Assembly: GCA_900315495.1 (NCBI GenBank)
Contig: OMZJ01000008.1
Coordinates: 62,001 to 126,000 of the forward strand
Reading direction: 5' to 3'
Length of the DNA stretch: 64,000 bases
DNA from: an uncultured Lachnospiraceae bacterium
GTDB taxonomy: Bacteria > Bacillota > Clostridia > Lachnospirales > Lachnospiraceae
Below the pieces are notes generated by a model. The model had not been told where the DNA came from. It saw nothing but the letters and a program-made list of their open reading frames with translations, and did no database searches. Position 1 is the first letter of the stretch; each line of letters opens with the position of its first letter. Shown piece by piece: positions 4,539 through 14,528 of this stretch. The position numbers were made by a program, and so were the translations under genes.

Positions 4539-6284
4539 TCAGTCGACCGGCATCCAGTCTTTGACAAGGCCGGCGTCTGCCATCAGCGAATAATTGGTGT
4601 GGTAGATGACAAACCCTGGCTTGGCGCCGGCCGGCTTTTTCACGAATTTCCGCTGGATATAATCGACCTCCCCCCGGCCGGTGGCGCGCGCTTCCGAGTA
4701 GCGGACAGCCAGCGCGCCGGCCTCCTCGTACGTGCGGTCGGGCACGTCTCTTCCTCCGGTCTGGATGATCACGTGGGAGCCGTGGGCCTTCTTGATGTGC
4801 ATCCAGATGTCGTTCCCCTGGGCAAAATGGAATGTCAGCTCGTCATTCTGCAGGTTGTTCCGGCCGACATAGATGTCAAAGCCGTCGGAGGAGCGGAAGT
4901 GGTAGGGCGGATTCCTGCGGGGGGCGGGTTTGCGGCGTTTCCCCTGTCTTTCCGGCCGAAGGTACCCGCATTCGGTGAGCTCCCGGCGGATATCCGACAG
5001 GTCCGCCTCGCTTTCCGCCAGGTCAATGGAGGCGGAGACGGAGCGCAGATGGTCCAGCTCCTCCGCAGTCTGAACGGTCAGTCCGGTCAGCGCTTCGTTG
5101 GTGCGCTTCAGCTTTCCGTAGCGGTCAAAGTACTTCTGCGCATTTTCCACCGGAGTGAGGGTGGCATCCAGGGGAATCCGAACATCCTGACCGGTGTAAT
5201 AGTTGTTGACGACGGCTTCCCGTGATCCGGCGGGAATATCGTAGCCGTAGGTGTTGAGCAGCTCACCGTACAGGCGGTACCGGTCGCGCTTTTCGGTGTC
5301 CTTCAGCTGCTTTTCCTGCAGATCCAGTTTTTTGGCGGACCGCTCGATCAGGTTGGACACCTGCCGGCGGAGCGTGGTGGATTTTTCCCGCATGCGGGCG
5401 GCCTGTGCCCTCTCGGCGTAGAAGTGCTCAATGACGGTGCTGATGGAATCCCCCGGGACGAGGGTGCAGTCGGTCCAGCCCGTGAGGCGGATTGCTGCAA
5501 ATTCCACCGGCTGGCCGTCCTTCACCGCGGTGCAGGGGAAGAACCGGCCTTCCTGCACGTCCTCCATGACCTGCAGGAAGGCGTCCGCAGTCTTTTCTTT
5601 TTCACGGTCAGAGAGCGCACTGCATCGGGCATCCGGATCGACGCCGGCGCGGGTGACGATTTCCCCGGCGGAGACGCGGCTGATTCCCGTGAAGGAGGAG
5701 GAGAGGGCTGACGCGGCGGGCGCTTCCCCGCAGAGAACGGCGCAGACGCCGTCCCGGTCCGCGGACAGCGGATTTTTCTTCTCCTGGGTGTTCGGGATAA
5801 AGTAGCGGCGCCCGGGCAGAACCTCGCGGACGGAACTCATGGAGGAACTGACATGGCGGATGCTGTCGACGATGGTGCCGGCCTCCGAGACAAGGATGAT
5901 GTTGCTGTACTTCCCCATGATTTCGGTGTTGAGAACGCATTTTTTCAGGTCGCCCATCTCATCGTAGTGCTCCATTTCAATGGAGATCACGCGCTCCAGG
6001 CCGGGCTGGCTGATCCGCAGAATATGGGCATTTCCGATCTGCTTGCGGAGCAGCATGCAGAAATTGGGTGCGGTCAGGGGACTGGGGGGATTCTGCTCGG
6101 TCAGGTGCACCAGGGGAAGACTGGCACTGGCCGAGAGCAGAAGCCGGAAGGTGCCCTGCCGGCTCTTGACGGTCAGGATGATTTCATCCTCCTCAGGCTG
6201 GGAAACCCGGGCGATTCTGCCGTCATAAAGTTTGTCGTTCAGCTCCGCGGCTACCGCGGCCGTTACAATCCCGTCATATGCCAT
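4539..6284 (-). CDS. rqcH: RqcH/Rqc2-type NFACT protein (ribosome quality control)
   Basis: NFACT proteins bind stalled 50S subunits carrying peptidyl-tRNA and recruit tRNA-Ala to add C-terminal alanine tails. The start is placed at the ATG at 6284 (MAYDGIVTAA), which matches the family N-terminus and follows AAAGGA; the open frame continues upstream but that part looks non-coding. The protein has 581 residues, the normal length. It contains the NFACT-N region, a long coiled coil (about 280-430) and a C-terminal NFACT-R domain (SSDGFDIYVGRNNLQND and HGSHVIIQ). The residue pair equivalent to the Asp-Arg at about 97/98 of Bacillus RqcH reads Glu97-Arg98. It is transcribed alone, divergently from yicC, with a leader of nearly 200 nt. 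Confidence 0.92.
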   Translation of the reverse strand: MAYDGIVTAAVAAELNDKLYDGRIARVSQPEEDEIILTVKSRQGTFRLLLSASASLPLVHLTEQNPPSPLTAPNFCMLLRKQIGNAHILRISQPGLERVISIEMEHYDEMGDLKKCVLNTEIMGKYSNIILVSEAGTIVDSIRHVSSSMSSVREVLPGRRYFIPNTQEKKNPLSADRDGVCAVLCGEAPAASALSSSFTGISRVSAGEIVTRAGVDPDARCSALSDREKEKTADAFLQVMEDVQEGRFFPCTAVKDGQPVEFAAIRLTGWTDCTLVPGDSISTVIEHFYAERAQAARMREKSTTLRRQVSNLIERSAKKLDLQEKQLKDTEKRDRYRLYGELLNTYGYDIPAGSREAVVNNYYTGQDVRIPLDATLTPVENAQKYFDRYGKLKRTNEALTGLTVQTAEELDHLRSVSASIDLAESEADLSDIRRELTECGYLRPERQGKRRKPAPRRNPPYHFRSSDGFDIYVGRNNLQNDELTFHFAQGNDIWMHIKKAHGSHVIIQTGGRDVPDRTYEEAGALAVRYSEARATGRGEVDYIQRKFVKKPAGAKPGFVIYHTNYSLMADAGLVKDWMPVD

Positions 6285-6487
6285 AAAAATATCCTTTCCA
6301 TACAGGCACTCGCCTGTTGTGTTTTCACATCCGTTTCGTCTGCTTCTGTGGGACGGAGGGCCCGTTCCTGTGCAGACGATCCGATGTCTTCCGCCTGCTC
6401 CGTCCGAAGATACCGCCTCTTTTGATAGGATTGTGAAGCGCCATTTGTCTGATCTTTCTGTGGGTGAAGAGCAAACCGTTACGGCAA

Positions 6488-6516
6488 AGTATACCACCGG
6501 ATGTTCTTGACGTCAA
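6488..6516 (-). promoter_or_regulatory. rqcH promoter (extended -10), sharing its -35 with the yicC promoter
   Basis: On the minus strand, -35 TTGACG is the complement of 6511-6516 and -10 TATACT is the complement of 6488-6493, with 17 nt between. A TGG triplet directly before the -10 makes an extended -10. The expected start near 6481 leaves a leader of about 197 nt before the rqcH ATG. I see no recognised riboswitch in that leader. Confidence 0.75.
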
Positions 6517-6535
6517 AAGTTCTCGGAATTATAAT
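6507..6535 (+). promoter_or_regulatory. yicC operon promoter with palindromic -35
   Basis: -35 TTGACG (6507-6512), 17-nt spacer, -10 TATAAT (6530-6535). The -35 lies inside the perfect palindrome TTGACGTCAA (6507-6516), whose other half is the -35 of the divergent rqcH promoter. RNA polymerase cannot occupy both at once, so the two units should be mutually exclusive or jointly controlled (inference). Confidence 0.8.
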
Positions 6536-6612
6536 AACTGGATGATATGCCGGCTGCCCGCCGGTATGGAATCAGCAGAAACCGGGGGCGGTCCCCGGGA
6601 TGGAGGAAGCAG

Positions 6613-7488
6613 ATGATCAGCAGCATGACGGGATTCGGCCGTGCGGAGGGGTCCGGAGAGGGATTTCGCATCACGGCGGAAATCAAGTCCGTAAATCACA
6701 GATACCTGGACCTTTCGGTCCGGATGCCGCGCAATTTTGCAGCCTTTGACCCGGAAGTCCATCAGCTCCTGCGGGACATGCTGACCCGCGGCAAGGTGGA
6801 TCTGGCGGTCACGCTGGAGGAGGAGGCGGTCACCGGCACGCTCCGGTACAACCGCGCACTGGCGGCTTCCTATGTCCGGTACCTGCGCGAGATGAGTGTC
6901 GAGTTCGGCATTCCGGATGACTGCACCGCAAGCCGCGTTGCCGCGATGCCGGATGTTCTGACGACTGGCACCGGAGATGCGGATGATTCCCGCTATCACG
7001 AGGCCCTGATGGACACGGTGAAGAGAGCGGTGGAAAACCTGATCGAGGCGCGGCAGACGGAGGGCGGAAAGCTGGCGGAGGATCTGCAGCAGAAGCTCAC
7101 CGGCCTGGAAGTCATGCGGGAGGAAGCGCAGCAGCGCGCCCCCGGCGTGGTGGAAGACTACCGGAAGCGAATCACCGTCCGGATGCAGGAGGTGCTCTCC
7201 GGCGTCCCGCTGGATCAGGAGCGGATCCTGACGGAGGCGGCGCTGTACGCAGACCGGGTCTGTGTGGATGAGGAGATCGTCCGGCTCGGCACCCACATCC
7301 GCCACATGAAGGAAGCGCTGGACCAGGGCGGGGCCGTCGGCAGAAAGCTCGATTTTCTGGCGCAGGAGATGAACCGCGAGGCAAACACCGCCCTGGCCAA
7401 GGCCAACGACAGCAGCCTGGCGGATCTGGCCATCGGCATGAAGACGGAGATTGAAAAAATCCGCGAGCAGGTCCAGAACATCGAGTGA
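6613..7488 (+). CDS. yicC: YicC family endoribonuclease
   Basis: YicC/YloC proteins are stress-associated endoribonucleases. ATG 6613 follows GGAGG (6602-6606) and gives the conserved start MISSMTGFGRA; the upstream in-frame ATG at 6547 has no such support. The 291 residues match the family length. An N-terminal YicC domain (about 1-155) is followed by the C-terminal DUF1732 region (about 205-291, with EEIVRLGTHIRHM and GRKLDFLAQEMNREANT). The 5' leader has a small GC hairpin (6582-6598) just before the ribosome binding site. It heads a run of tightly overlapping genes through at least pgsA. Confidence 0.93.
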   Translation: MISSMTGFGRAEGSGEGFRITAEIKSVNHRYLDLSVRMPRNFAAFDPEVHQLLRDMLTRGKVDLAVTLEEEAVTGTLRYNRALAASYVRYLREMSVEFGIPDDCTASRVAAMPDVLTTGTGDADDSRYHEALMDTVKRAVENLIEARQTEGGKLAEDLQQKLTGLEVMREEAQQRAPGVVEDYRKRITVRMQEVLSGVPLDQERILTEAALYADRVCVDEEIVRLGTHIRHMKEALDQGGAVGRKLDFLAQEMNREANTALAKANDSSLADLAIGMKTEIEKIREQVQNIE

Positions 7489-7772
7489 AATCCATGTTTA
7501 TTAATATCGGCTTTGGTAATTTTGTCAATTCGGATCTCATCGTCGCCATCGGCCGGGCGGATTCCGCGCCGGCGAGACGGCTGATCAGCCGGGCCAGGGA
7601 GAGCAACATCCTGGTGGACTGTACGCAGGGTCGGAAGACGAAGACGATTCTGACCGCGATGAACGGTCAGGTGATCCTTTCGGCGCTGACGCCTGAGACG
7701 GTCACAGGAAGGCTCCGTACCGACAGCGCGGATGCGCTGCCGGAAGAGGAGGAGGAAAGTGGAGAACAGTAA
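7485..7772 (+). CDS. remA: RemA-like regulator (DUF370)
   Basis: RemA is a small DNA-binding protein that in Bacillus activates matrix and osmoprotection genes. FINIGFGNFVNSDLIVAI, SAPARRLISRA and LVDCTQGRKTKTILT match the family closely. The GTG at 7485 overlaps the yicC stop (7486-7488); the alternative ATG at 7494 begins MFINIGFG and agrees equally well with the family, giving 95 or 92 residues. The C-terminus is acidic and overlaps gmk by 14 nt. The order yicC-remA-gmk-rpoZ is the same as in Bacillus. Confidence 0.88.
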   Translation: MKSMFINIGFGNFVNSDLIVAIGRADSAPARRLISRARESNILVDCTQGRKTKTILTAMNGQVILSALTPETVTGRLRTDSADALPEEEEESGEQ

Positions 7773-8403
7773 GAGGGGATGTCTGTTTGTGGTCTCGGGC
7801 TTTTCGGGATCCGGCAAGGGAACGGTGATGGAATGGTTCCGCAGCCGGCCGGACCGGTATGCGCTTTCCGTATCCTGCACAAGCCGGAAGCCGCGCCCCG
7901 GGGAAGTCGAGGGAGTTTCCTATTATTATATCTCCCATGACGAATTCCGGAAGCGCGCGGAGGAGGGCTTTTTCCTTGAGCATGCCATCTATGCCGATCA
8001 CGGATACGGCACGCCGAAGAAATTCGTCGAGGAAAGCCTGGCCGCCGGTAAGAATGTGATTCTGGAGATTGAACTGCAGGGAGCCATGCAGGTGAAGAAA
8101 ATCTATCCGGATACCACGCTGATCTTTATCACACCGCCTTCGGTGGAGGAACTGCGCCGCAGGCTGGTCGGGCGCGGGACCGAGACGGCGGAGGAGATTC
8201 ACAAGAGGCTCCGCCGTGCCGTCGAGGAAGGACGGTACATGGACCAGTACGATTACATTGTCGTCAATGACGATCTGCAGACCTGCATCCGGCAGCTGGA
8301 TGCGCTGATGCAGGCACAGAGACTGCGGGCATCTCATTCCGCCGAACTGATCGGTTCGATCCGCGGGGGACTCAAACAACTCGAGAGGGAGGAAAACGAA
8401 TGA
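7759..8403 (+). CDS. gmk: Guanylate kinase
   Basis: Phosphorylates GMP to GDP with ATP. The P-loop GFSGSGKG is at residues 14-21, followed by SCTSRKPRPGEVEGVSYYY, the GMP-binding region. The GTG at 7759 is preferred because AGGAGGAGGAAA directly precedes it and it starts the protein just before the P-loop; this gives 214 residues, the normal length. It overlaps the end of remA by 14 nt and its stop overlaps the rpoZ start (ATGA at 8400-8403). Confidence 0.96.
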   Translation: MENSKRGCLFVVSGFSGSGKGTVMEWFRSRPDRYALSVSCTSRKPRPGEVEGVSYYYISHDEFRKRAEEGFFLEHAIYADHGYGTPKKFVEESLAAGKNVILEIELQGAMQVKKIYPDTTLIFITPPSVEELRRRLVGRGTETAEEIHKRLRRAVEEGRYMDQYDYIVVNDDLQTCIRQLDALMQAQRLRASHSAELIGSIRGGLKQLEREENE

Positions 8404-8825
8404 TTCATCCATCCTATGTGGAACTTCTGAAAATCATGAATGACGAGGCGGAGGAGAACGGAACGCCGCACATTGACAGCCGTTATTCCCTGGTGATTGC
8501 CGCGGCCAAGCGCGCGAGACAGATCATCGCCGGGGCGGAGCCTCTGGTGGATGAGAAGCCGGGGGCCAAGCCGCTGTCCATCGCCGTGGACGAGATCGCG
8601 CAGAAAAAGGTCACGGTCGTGGAAGAGGGCGTGGACGACATCAGTGAGCACCTGAAGACGCTGATGGAGAATGTCAGCAACCTCACCTTCGACGATTCTT
8701 CGGACGCGGTGGCGGTGGATGACACCGACCGCACGGGCACCGAGGACGATTACAGCAGCGATTCCGGTGCGGAGACGTCGGACGACGAGGTCGATCTGGA
8801 CGGAGCGGATTCGGACGACGAATAA
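8400..8825 (+). CDS. rpoZ: RNA polymerase omega subunit with long acidic tail
   Basis: The N-terminal part (MIHPSYVELL, DSRYSLVIAAAKRARQI, about 1-45) and KPLSIAVDEIAQKKV (about 58-72) are typical of Firmicute omega, which aids assembly of RNA polymerase around beta'. The protein has 141 residues rather than about 65-90. From about residue 95 on, the extra part is almost only Asp, Glu, Ser, Thr and Gly. ATGA overlap with gmk and a 1-nt overlap with rimO place it firmly in the operon. Confidence 0.92.
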   Translation: MIHPSYVELLKIMNDEAEENGTPHIDSRYSLVIAAAKRARQIIAGAEPLVDEKPGAKPLSIAVDEIAQKKVTVVEEGVDDISEHLKTLMENVSNLTFDDSSDAVAVDDTDRTGTEDDYSSDSGAETSDDEVDLDGADSDDE

Positions 8826-10195
8826 TGGGGACAAACAGAACACCGCAGGTACTTTTTGTCTCGCTCGGCTGTGACAAGAACCGGGTGGACACCGAGAAGA
8901 TGATGGCCCTTCTCGCCGAGAGGGGATACGGATTTACGGACGACGCGGATGAGGCGGATGCGGCGGTGGTCAACAGCTGCTGCTTCATCGGCGACGCCAA
9001 GGAAGAGAGCATCAGCAATATCATCGAGCTGGGCAGCCGGAAGAAAACCGGCCGCCTGAAGGCACTGATTGTGACCGGGTGCCTGTCCGAGCGCTACCGC
9101 AGCGAGGTCCTGGCGGACATGCCCGAGGTGGACGCGGTGCTGGGCATCTCCGGCTGGCAGGAGATTGCGGATACGCTGGATTCCGTCTTCGCCGGGACAA
9201 AGGAGAAGCGGGAGGAGTTCCTTCCGAACAACCGGTTCTATACCGATCAGACGAAGCGCATCCTGACGACTGGCGGAAGCTACAGCTACCTGAAAATTGC
9301 GGAGGGGTGCAGCAAGCGGTGCACCTACTGCGTGATTCCGTCGGTCCGCGGGCCCTACCGCAGTGTTCCGATGGAACAGCTGGAGAAAGAAGCCCGGGAG
9401 CTGGCGGACAAGGGCGTCCGGGAGCTGATCCTGGTGGCACAGGAGACGACGCTCTACGGGACGGATCTGTATGGCCGCAAGATGCTGCCCGAACTGATCC
9501 GCAGGCTTGCCCGGATCCCCGGGATTGCCTGGATCCGGGTGCTCTACTGTTATCCGGAAGAAATCACGGATGAACTGATCAATGTCATCCGCGATGAGCC
9601 GAAGGTCTGCCACTATCTGGACGTGCCGATTCAGCACGCCTCCGACCGGATCCTGAAAAAGATGGGCCGGAAGACGGACGAGGCGTCCATCCGCCGCATC
9701 GTTGGGAAGCTGCGGGAGGAGATCCCGGACATTGTGATCCGGACCACCCTGATGACGGGATTCCCCGGGGAAACCGAGGAGGATTTCGAGACGCTGTACC
9801 GGTTTGTGGATGAGATGGCCTTTGAGCGCCTGGGCGTATTCGCCTACTCCAGGGAGGAGGGAACTCCTGCGGCTGAGATGCCGGACCAGGTCCCCGCGGA
9901 CGTTGCCAATGAACGGCGGGACCGCATCATGGCGCTGCAGCAGGAGATCTCCGCGTCTGTGGAGGAAGCCTGCGTGGGCAATCTTTTTACCGTGATGATT
10001 GAGGGACGTCTTCCGGACGAACACGTCTGCGTCGGGCGCACCTACATGGATGCACCGGATGTGGACGGCATGATCTTTGTCCGCACGGACGCGGATCTGA
10101 TGAGCGGCACGTTTGTGAAGGTCAGCGTCACCGGGTCCGACCAGTATGATCTGACAGGAGAAATTTTCGATGAAGAATCTGAATCTGCCGAATAA
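8825..10195 (+). CDS. rimO: Ribosomal protein S12 methylthiotransferase RimO
   Basis: A radical-SAM enzyme that methylthiolates an aspartate of ribosomal protein S12. It has 456 residues. The N-terminal UPF0004 domain carries the cysteines of the auxiliary cluster (SLGCDKN, NSCCF, TGCLSER). The radical-SAM triad CSKRCTYC begins at residue 162, and a TRAM domain closes the C-terminus. RimO rather than MiaB is favoured by VSLGCDKNRVD and by the S12-type sequence GPYRSVPMEQL. The start at 8825 overlaps the rpoZ stop; the end overlaps pgsA by 26 nt. Confidence 0.95.
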   Translation: MGTNRTPQVLFVSLGCDKNRVDTEKMMALLAERGYGFTDDADEADAAVVNSCCFIGDAKEESISNIIELGSRKKTGRLKALIVTGCLSERYRSEVLADMPEVDAVLGISGWQEIADTLDSVFAGTKEKREEFLPNNRFYTDQTKRILTTGGSYSYLKIAEGCSKRCTYCVIPSVRGPYRSVPMEQLEKEARELADKGVRELILVAQETTLYGTDLYGRKMLPELIRRLARIPGIAWIRVLYCYPEEITDELINVIRDEPKVCHYLDVPIQHASDRILKKMGRKTDEASIRRIVGKLREEIPDIVIRTTLMTGFPGETEEDFETLYRFVDEMAFERLGVFAYSREEGTPAAEMPDQVPADVANERRDRIMALQQEISASVEEACVGNLFTVMIEGRLPDEHVCVGRTYMDAPDVDGMIFVRTDADLMSGTFVKVSVTGSDQYDLTGEIFDEESESAE

Positions 10196-14499: not shown

Positions 14500-14528
14500 T
14501 TGACAGAAAACAACCTGGATTCTATAAT
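14500..14528 (+). promoter_or_regulatory. consensus promoter for asp23-fakA-recG
   Basis: Perfect -35 TTGACA (14500-14505), 17-nt spacer, perfect -10 TATAAT (14523-14528). The expected start is near 14535, leaving a leader of about 94 nt. Confidence 0.85.

Follow-up and report, generated by a model that had tools for sequence, protein, structure and literature searches.

Back-to-back divergent promoters fire outward from a common upstream region, and their -35 elements usually lie apart. What follows when two such promoters are built on the same -35 DNA? The region between rqcH and yicC raises this question in the window, by which we mean the whole 64-kb stretch of DNA analysed here, from an uncultured Lachnospiraceae bacterium. 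Unlike back-to-back promoters in general, the two predicted here have their -35 elements superimposed in a perfect palindrome. An earlier note on this DNA had proposed that the pair forms an either/or switch between ribosome quality control and an operon whose products include a subunit of RNA polymerase and guanylate kinase. The relevant features, in window coordinates, are these:

4539-6284, minus strand: rqcH, for a NEMF/RqcH-type ribosome quality control factor, with its ATG at 6284
6285-6481, minus strand: predicted rqcH leader, about 200 nt
6488-6496, minus strand: predicted extended -10 of rqcH, TGG-TATACT (hexamer 6493-6488, TG 6496-6495)
6507-6516: perfect 10-bp palindrome TTGACGTCAA, which contains both -35 hexamers
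6507-6512, plus strand: predicted -35 of the yicC operon, TTGACG, also present here in both congeners
6516-6511, minus strand: predicted -35 of rqcH, TTGACG
6530-6535, plus strand: predicted -10 of the yicC operon, TATAAT, after a 17-nt spacer
6533-6528, minus strand: second leftward -10, TATAAT, overlapping the yicC -10 and listed at distance 243
6542-6612, plus strand: predicted yicC leader, about 70 nt
6613-7488, plus strand: yicC/yloC endoribonuclease family gene, above the NCBIfam cut-off
7494-7772, plus strand: remA, passing PRK04323 and under the cut-off of the RemA-named model
7759-8403, plus strand: gmk, guanylate kinase, GTG start, above the NCBIfam cut-off
8400-8825, plus strand: rpoZ, omega subunit, above the NCBIfam cut-off
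8825-10195, plus strand: rimO, above the NCBIfam cut-off

The rqcH product strongly matches the EfbA (E 1.7e-124) and archaeal RqcH (1.4e-48) models, though in both cases below their cut-offs. On the other side, yicC, remA, gmk, rpoZ and rimO are tightly packed head to tail. The gene row extends past the yicC-remA-gmk-rpoZ given earlier, with rimO following at 8825.

The 328-nt intergenic region, from the rqcH ATG at 6284 (minus strand) to the yicC ATG at 6613 (plus strand), houses TTGACGTCAA. Scanning the window, we found 11 of 12 consensus matches for the predicted yicC-side promoter and 10 of 12, with a 17-nt spacer, for the predicted rqcH-side promoter, whose TG (extended -10) was absent from the earlier description. 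The claim of two opposed promoters with exact 17-nt spacers and with -35 elements overlapping by 2 bp inside a 10-bp palindrome is thus confirmed in the sequence: each promoter has a -10, a -35 and a spacer within 16-18 nt, and their core elements physically overlap, positions 6511-6512 being common to both -35 hexamers. The palindrome is the direct outcome of two TTGACG hexamers overlapping by 2 bp. The predicted -10 elements are separated by 36 nt and the predicted starts by about 60 bp.

Such a pair is rare by chance, and the palindrome is not. With a threshold of at least 5/6 in the -10 and at least 4/6 in the -35, this is the sole divergent pair in the 64-kb window that reaches at least 9/12 with -35 elements overlapping or no more than 40 nt apart. 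Approximate dinucleotide shuffles of the window gave overlapping pairs in 0/200 cases at 9/12 and in 0/200 at 10/12, and shuffles of the 328-nt intergenic region gave none in 5000 at 10/12. With at most one mismatch allowed, the window contains 3 such palindromes where 1.39 are expected, and exact TTGACGTCAA occurs 3 times in the 2.93-Mb genome against 2 for a reversed control pattern; the palindrome alone is at chance level in the genome.

A similarity search with the intergenic DNA returned only the self-match among the three genomes of the genus, and relatives were therefore located through YicC. Both congeners carry TTGACG-N17-TATAAT before yicC, and neither (0/2) has the TCAA half that completes the palindrome. 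In one of them (G002; locus L084, identical in sequence to L005), a leftward extended -10, TGG-TATGCT, is accompanied by a TTGTCT -35; this -10 is placed 24 nt away from the yicC -35, where the window has 13, a difference of 11 nt or about one turn, and the two -35 elements are 1 nt apart. TATGCT matches at 4/6 and is uncounted in the family scoring described below, which needs 5/6 and whose pick for this locus lies far away. In the other congener (L085) the best leftward -10 is 50 nt from the yicC -35, and under the family scoring neither congener counts as superposed. Among 250 family genomes, TTGACGTCAA-N13-TATAAT occurs at 5 sites in 5 genomes. Two of these sites are at yicC, in the window and in genome G220, and of those two the window's alone is matched by a good -10 on the rqcH side, at 17 nt. 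Another of the five sites (L260), at a different gene pair, has TATCAT at 18 nt. Conservation of the palindrome in relatives, which the earlier note had named as something to look for, is thus missing: it is found in 0/2 congeners, and among the yicC sites of the 250 family genomes the full pair occurs only in the window. As far as these sequences tell, TTGACG is inherited and the palindrome is not conserved. Because the congeners keep TTGACG-N17-TATAAT without TCAA and have another leftward geometry, the geometry of the window is a local variant.

We then compared the inherited half across the family. A YicC match was present in 233 family genomes, and upstream DNA was taken from 110 of them (30 + 80 loci), chosen roughly by score, with a few loci that had little upstream contig skipped; the two congeners were added, and 1 of the 112 was too short. 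Over the whole collection 156 of 160 loci were kept and 154 were long enough, 111 of them in the family set (L054-L165). TTGAC[T/G]-N17-TATAAT lies within 200 nt before yicC in 69 of the 111 family genomes and within 400 nt in 73, and in nine further genomes the spacer after TTGAC[C/G/T] is 18 nt long. The full-consensus form TTGACA-N17-TATAAT was found before yicC in 0/111 within 200 nt and in 1/111 within 400 nt (L146).

A promoter scoring at least 10 was present at 98 of the 111 loci. For a sequence logo we aligned the 80 loci with TTGAC and a 17-nt spacer, omitting the 13 that scored below 10, nine with 18-nt spacers and nine with other hexamers. The background consisted of 148 TTGACN-N17-TATAAT sites, some perhaps not promoters, from 3 of 12 searched genomes (all sites of G000 and G001 except yicC, and 44 of the 101 of G017). 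The last -35 position is A in 3/80 aligned yicC promoters against 103/148 background sites (Fisher p 1.6e-24), and T stands at -17 in 72/80 against 48/148 (p 4.6e-18), both p values ignoring shared ancestry. For comparison with other families of the class we used 30 loci (L196-L225) from 52 matching genomes. Within 200 nt of yicC, 0/30 of these have TTGAC-N18-TATAAT, and hence neither TTGAC[G/T]-N17-TATAAT nor TTGACA-N17-TATAAT, while TGn-TATAAT occurs in 12/30 compared with 4/111 in the family. This pattern suggests that one promoter element was exchanged for another during evolution; in our reading, an extended -10 promoter would have gained a -35 in the family while retaining part of its TG motif. 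In genome G120 (L180), where yicC was undetected at E <=1e-20, the signature promoter lies between rqcH and remA-gmk, followed by rpoZ (genes named by reading the sequence), and the signature may accordingly be a feature of the operon and not of yicC itself.

As a control gene we took asp23, with 30 upstream regions (L226-L255). AACAGG[GT]TATAAT was found in 5/30 and AACA[AG][AG][GT]TATNAT in 9/30, mostly with a poor -35; TTGACA-N16-18-TATAAT occurred in 1/30 and TTGAC[GT] in 0/30. Since asp23 also has a gene-specific promoter look, the yicC signature need not mean a regulator, and its value as proof of one is weakened. The asp23 promoter of the window itself (14500-14528) is a full-consensus TTGACA-N17-TATAAT. 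RemA, whose gene lies in the operon, was considered as the factor behind the yicC signature and set aside: it binds DNA in Bacillus, and the sites reported there, weakly conserved AT-rich 7-bp repeats, look different (PMC8481266).

Does the superposition recur even though the palindrome does not? Of the 98 promoter-bearing loci, 60 had a divergent rqcH start within the available stretch; we used the 55 of these pairs that had a leftward -10 and no more than 400 nt of intergenic DNA. The rqcH promoter was picked by its -10 and TG alone, the TG counting as a bonus and the -35 being ignored. The rqcH -10 falls 11-17 nt from the yicC -35, a distance at which both -35 elements coincide, in 11 of the 55 pairs against 2.6 expected; permutation of positions between genomes, which presumes that promoter positions are exchangeable between them, reached 11 in 0 of 10000 trials. 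Near-identical cores are present among these loci (L079, L068, L096 and, by eye, L102), and after cores were collapsed at 60% identity, 7/49 were superposed against 1.9 expected (p = 0.0014). Scrambled -10 placebo motifs equalled the real count in 0 of 19 cases, the best reaching 6. The remaining 44 of the 55 pairs are not superposed at the -35. When rqcH picks were scored with the -35 included, 12/60 overlapped, a scoring that can itself favour overlap. The rqcH -10 falls on the yicC -10 in 6/55 pairs against 2.0 expected, but the frequent symmetry of the yicC -10, which can then be read as a -10 from either strand, biases this test. Superposition has probably arisen repeatedly, in different geometries. 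At two loci with short intergenic regions (L007, 122 bp, and L062, 93 bp), TTGAC[A/T]-N17-TATAAT is present both ways with overlapping -10 elements; by sequence, these look like the published class of bidirectional promoters that share a -10.

For the window, we favour the reading that these are back-to-back sigma-A promoters with superimposed -35 elements, at which exclusion between RNA polymerases sets a ratio of initiation in the two directions, with mild mutual reduction; we give it a probability of roughly 0.68. The promoter of yicC-remA-gmk-rpoZ-rimO would be the old, constrained element, with its -35 in the form TTGAC[T/G], and the rqcH promoter would be of the extended -10 type, its position drifting between species. 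In the window, the yicC -35 completed by TCAA would double as the -35 of rqcH. Sigma region 4 would have to bind 6507-6516 for both promoters and the footprints would overlap further, a geometry that makes double occupancy sterically implausible, so that polymerase on one promoter should exclude the other direction. Initiation events would then be split by relative promoter strength, with mild mutual reduction at high activity; a switch would need some further bias toward one direction. When the sharing was modelled as simple occupancy, the flux left to a promoter beside an equal competitor fell from 95% to 57% as k*tau went from 0.05 to 3. With no feedback, the outcome is allocation by relative strength and not a switch. 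Of the earlier proposal that polymerase can use only one promoter at a time, exclusion stands, on geometrical grounds, while the either/or outcome gives way to a competition that sets a ratio.

Bidirectional promoters of E. coli offer the closest comparison, and the study of them (Warman, Grainger and colleagues; PMC12825309) likewise describes exclusion between opposed polymerases, shared core DNA and strength-dependent competition. At five such promoters, one direction was hardly affected when the opposite one was weakened, and strong interference set in when the activity of one side was increased (PMC12825309). The window pair is near consensus and may for that reason be nearer the range in which competition counts. 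The E. coli promoters have a -10 in common, and in the examples studied their starts are separated by 10-23 bp (PMC12825309), whereas the window pair shares a -35; with its -10 elements (6488-6493 and 6530-6535) 36 nt apart, it falls outside the shared -10 class, although the yicC -10 is symmetric by itself and may also serve a leftward start of that kind. A second comparison is the Pc/Pr pair of pLS20, likewise two opposing promoters overlapping on one piece of DNA, in a Gram-positive setting where polymerase itself can regulate (PMC4207663). In the arrangement preferred by its authors, unlike in the window, one promoter has its -10 where the opposing promoter has its -35 (PMC4207663). There, too, the switch is described as made by RcoLS20 together with DNA looping (PMC4207663), whereas no operator signature was found in the window.

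The alternative that survives best is that the proposed leftward promoter (6488-6516) is unused and that rqcH starts from the symmetric -10 at 6533-6528 or elsewhere, which we consider unlikely. At the predicted yicC promoter, ATTATAAT (6528-6535) is a perfect -10 on both strands, and the minus-strand TATAAT is of the sequence type seen in the published shared -10 promoters. The proposed rqcH -10 is the less perfect TATACT, and the leader it implies exceeds that of most relatives: in 37 of the 55 family pairs the picked rqcH -10 lies at a distance of just 20-50 nt from the gene, and in two others it is more than 200 nt away. Against this, the promoter scan found no -35 good enough for listing with the symmetric -10, whereas the proposed promoter has a TG, 5/6 in its -35 and an exact 17-nt spacer, and no leftward -10 of at least 5/6 lies closer to rqcH in the window. 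The symmetry of the yicC -10 slightly lowers our preferred reading and slightly raises this one. Folding of the predicted rqcH leader is weak (z -1.95, with 5 of 200 shuffles folding equally well), and the predicted yicC leader, folded over 6542-6625, has no unusual fold (z -0.03). Two pairs of 8-nt inverted repeats interleave within the predicted rqcH leader, and a further inverted repeat (6302-6317) lies just ahead of the rqcH start codon. An RNA element at the site was rejected, the single Rfam match, at 19.9 bits, falling short of the gathering score of 35.

More doubtful still is a family-wide adaptive reading, in which the rqcH and yicC promoters would have been repeatedly selected onto one -35, tying ribosome rescue by way of polymerase competition to the guanylate kinase/polymerase-subunit operon, with the yicC -35 held at TTGAC[T/G], almost never TTGACA, to balance the competition and the window palindrome as the tightest version. 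That a dimeric regulator uses TTGACGTCAA as an operator to repress or select both promoters is very improbable. A perfect 10-bp palindrome does span both -35 elements, and the yicC promoter of G220 (L070/L258) has TTGACGTCAA without an rqcH -10 at the right distance. However, its genomic copy number hardly departs from that of the control, the overlap of two TTGACG hexamers yields it directly, and the congeners lack it. The other two genomic copies have no TATAAT at the right distance and lie inside long reading frames whose translations read as AtpB-like and PfkB-like, which makes a regulator's site unlikely; all three copies examined, there is no regulon for the palindrome in this genome.

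Least probable of all is the regulator-free either/or switch itself, in which polymerase commits to rqcH or to yicC-gmk-rpoZ and so couples ribosome rescue to transcription and GTP supply: both predicted promoters are near enough to consensus that they may reach the range where competition matters (PMC12825309), and the recurrence of superposition at this gene pair above permutations favours some coupling, but the sequence holds no feedback or memory, the palindrome is missing in the congeners, basal competition was small in the E. coli cases described (PMC12825309), and simple competition, as in the occupancy model, gives a ratio, leaving a switch unlikely without added bias.

We found no report of the rqcH/yicC promoter pair in the open-access literature on overlapping promoters, yicC, RemA and rqcH. 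In C. difficile, yicC is reported as probably belonging to an operon headed by dapF (PMC8041843), and the rqcH/yicC arrangement is thus not general in the class. We conclude that the window holds a known arrangement, of which it is a tidy lineage-specific example with a modest family-wide pattern behind it, and that the outcome is probably a mild competition and not a switch. Provided that both promoters fire, the pair would offer a minimal natural case for testing whether exclusion between polymerases suffices to coordinate two housekeeping units, and the family, in which superposition takes different forms in different genera and the operon promoter avoids the consensus base at one -35 position, would provide a comparative set for the costs and benefits of overlap.
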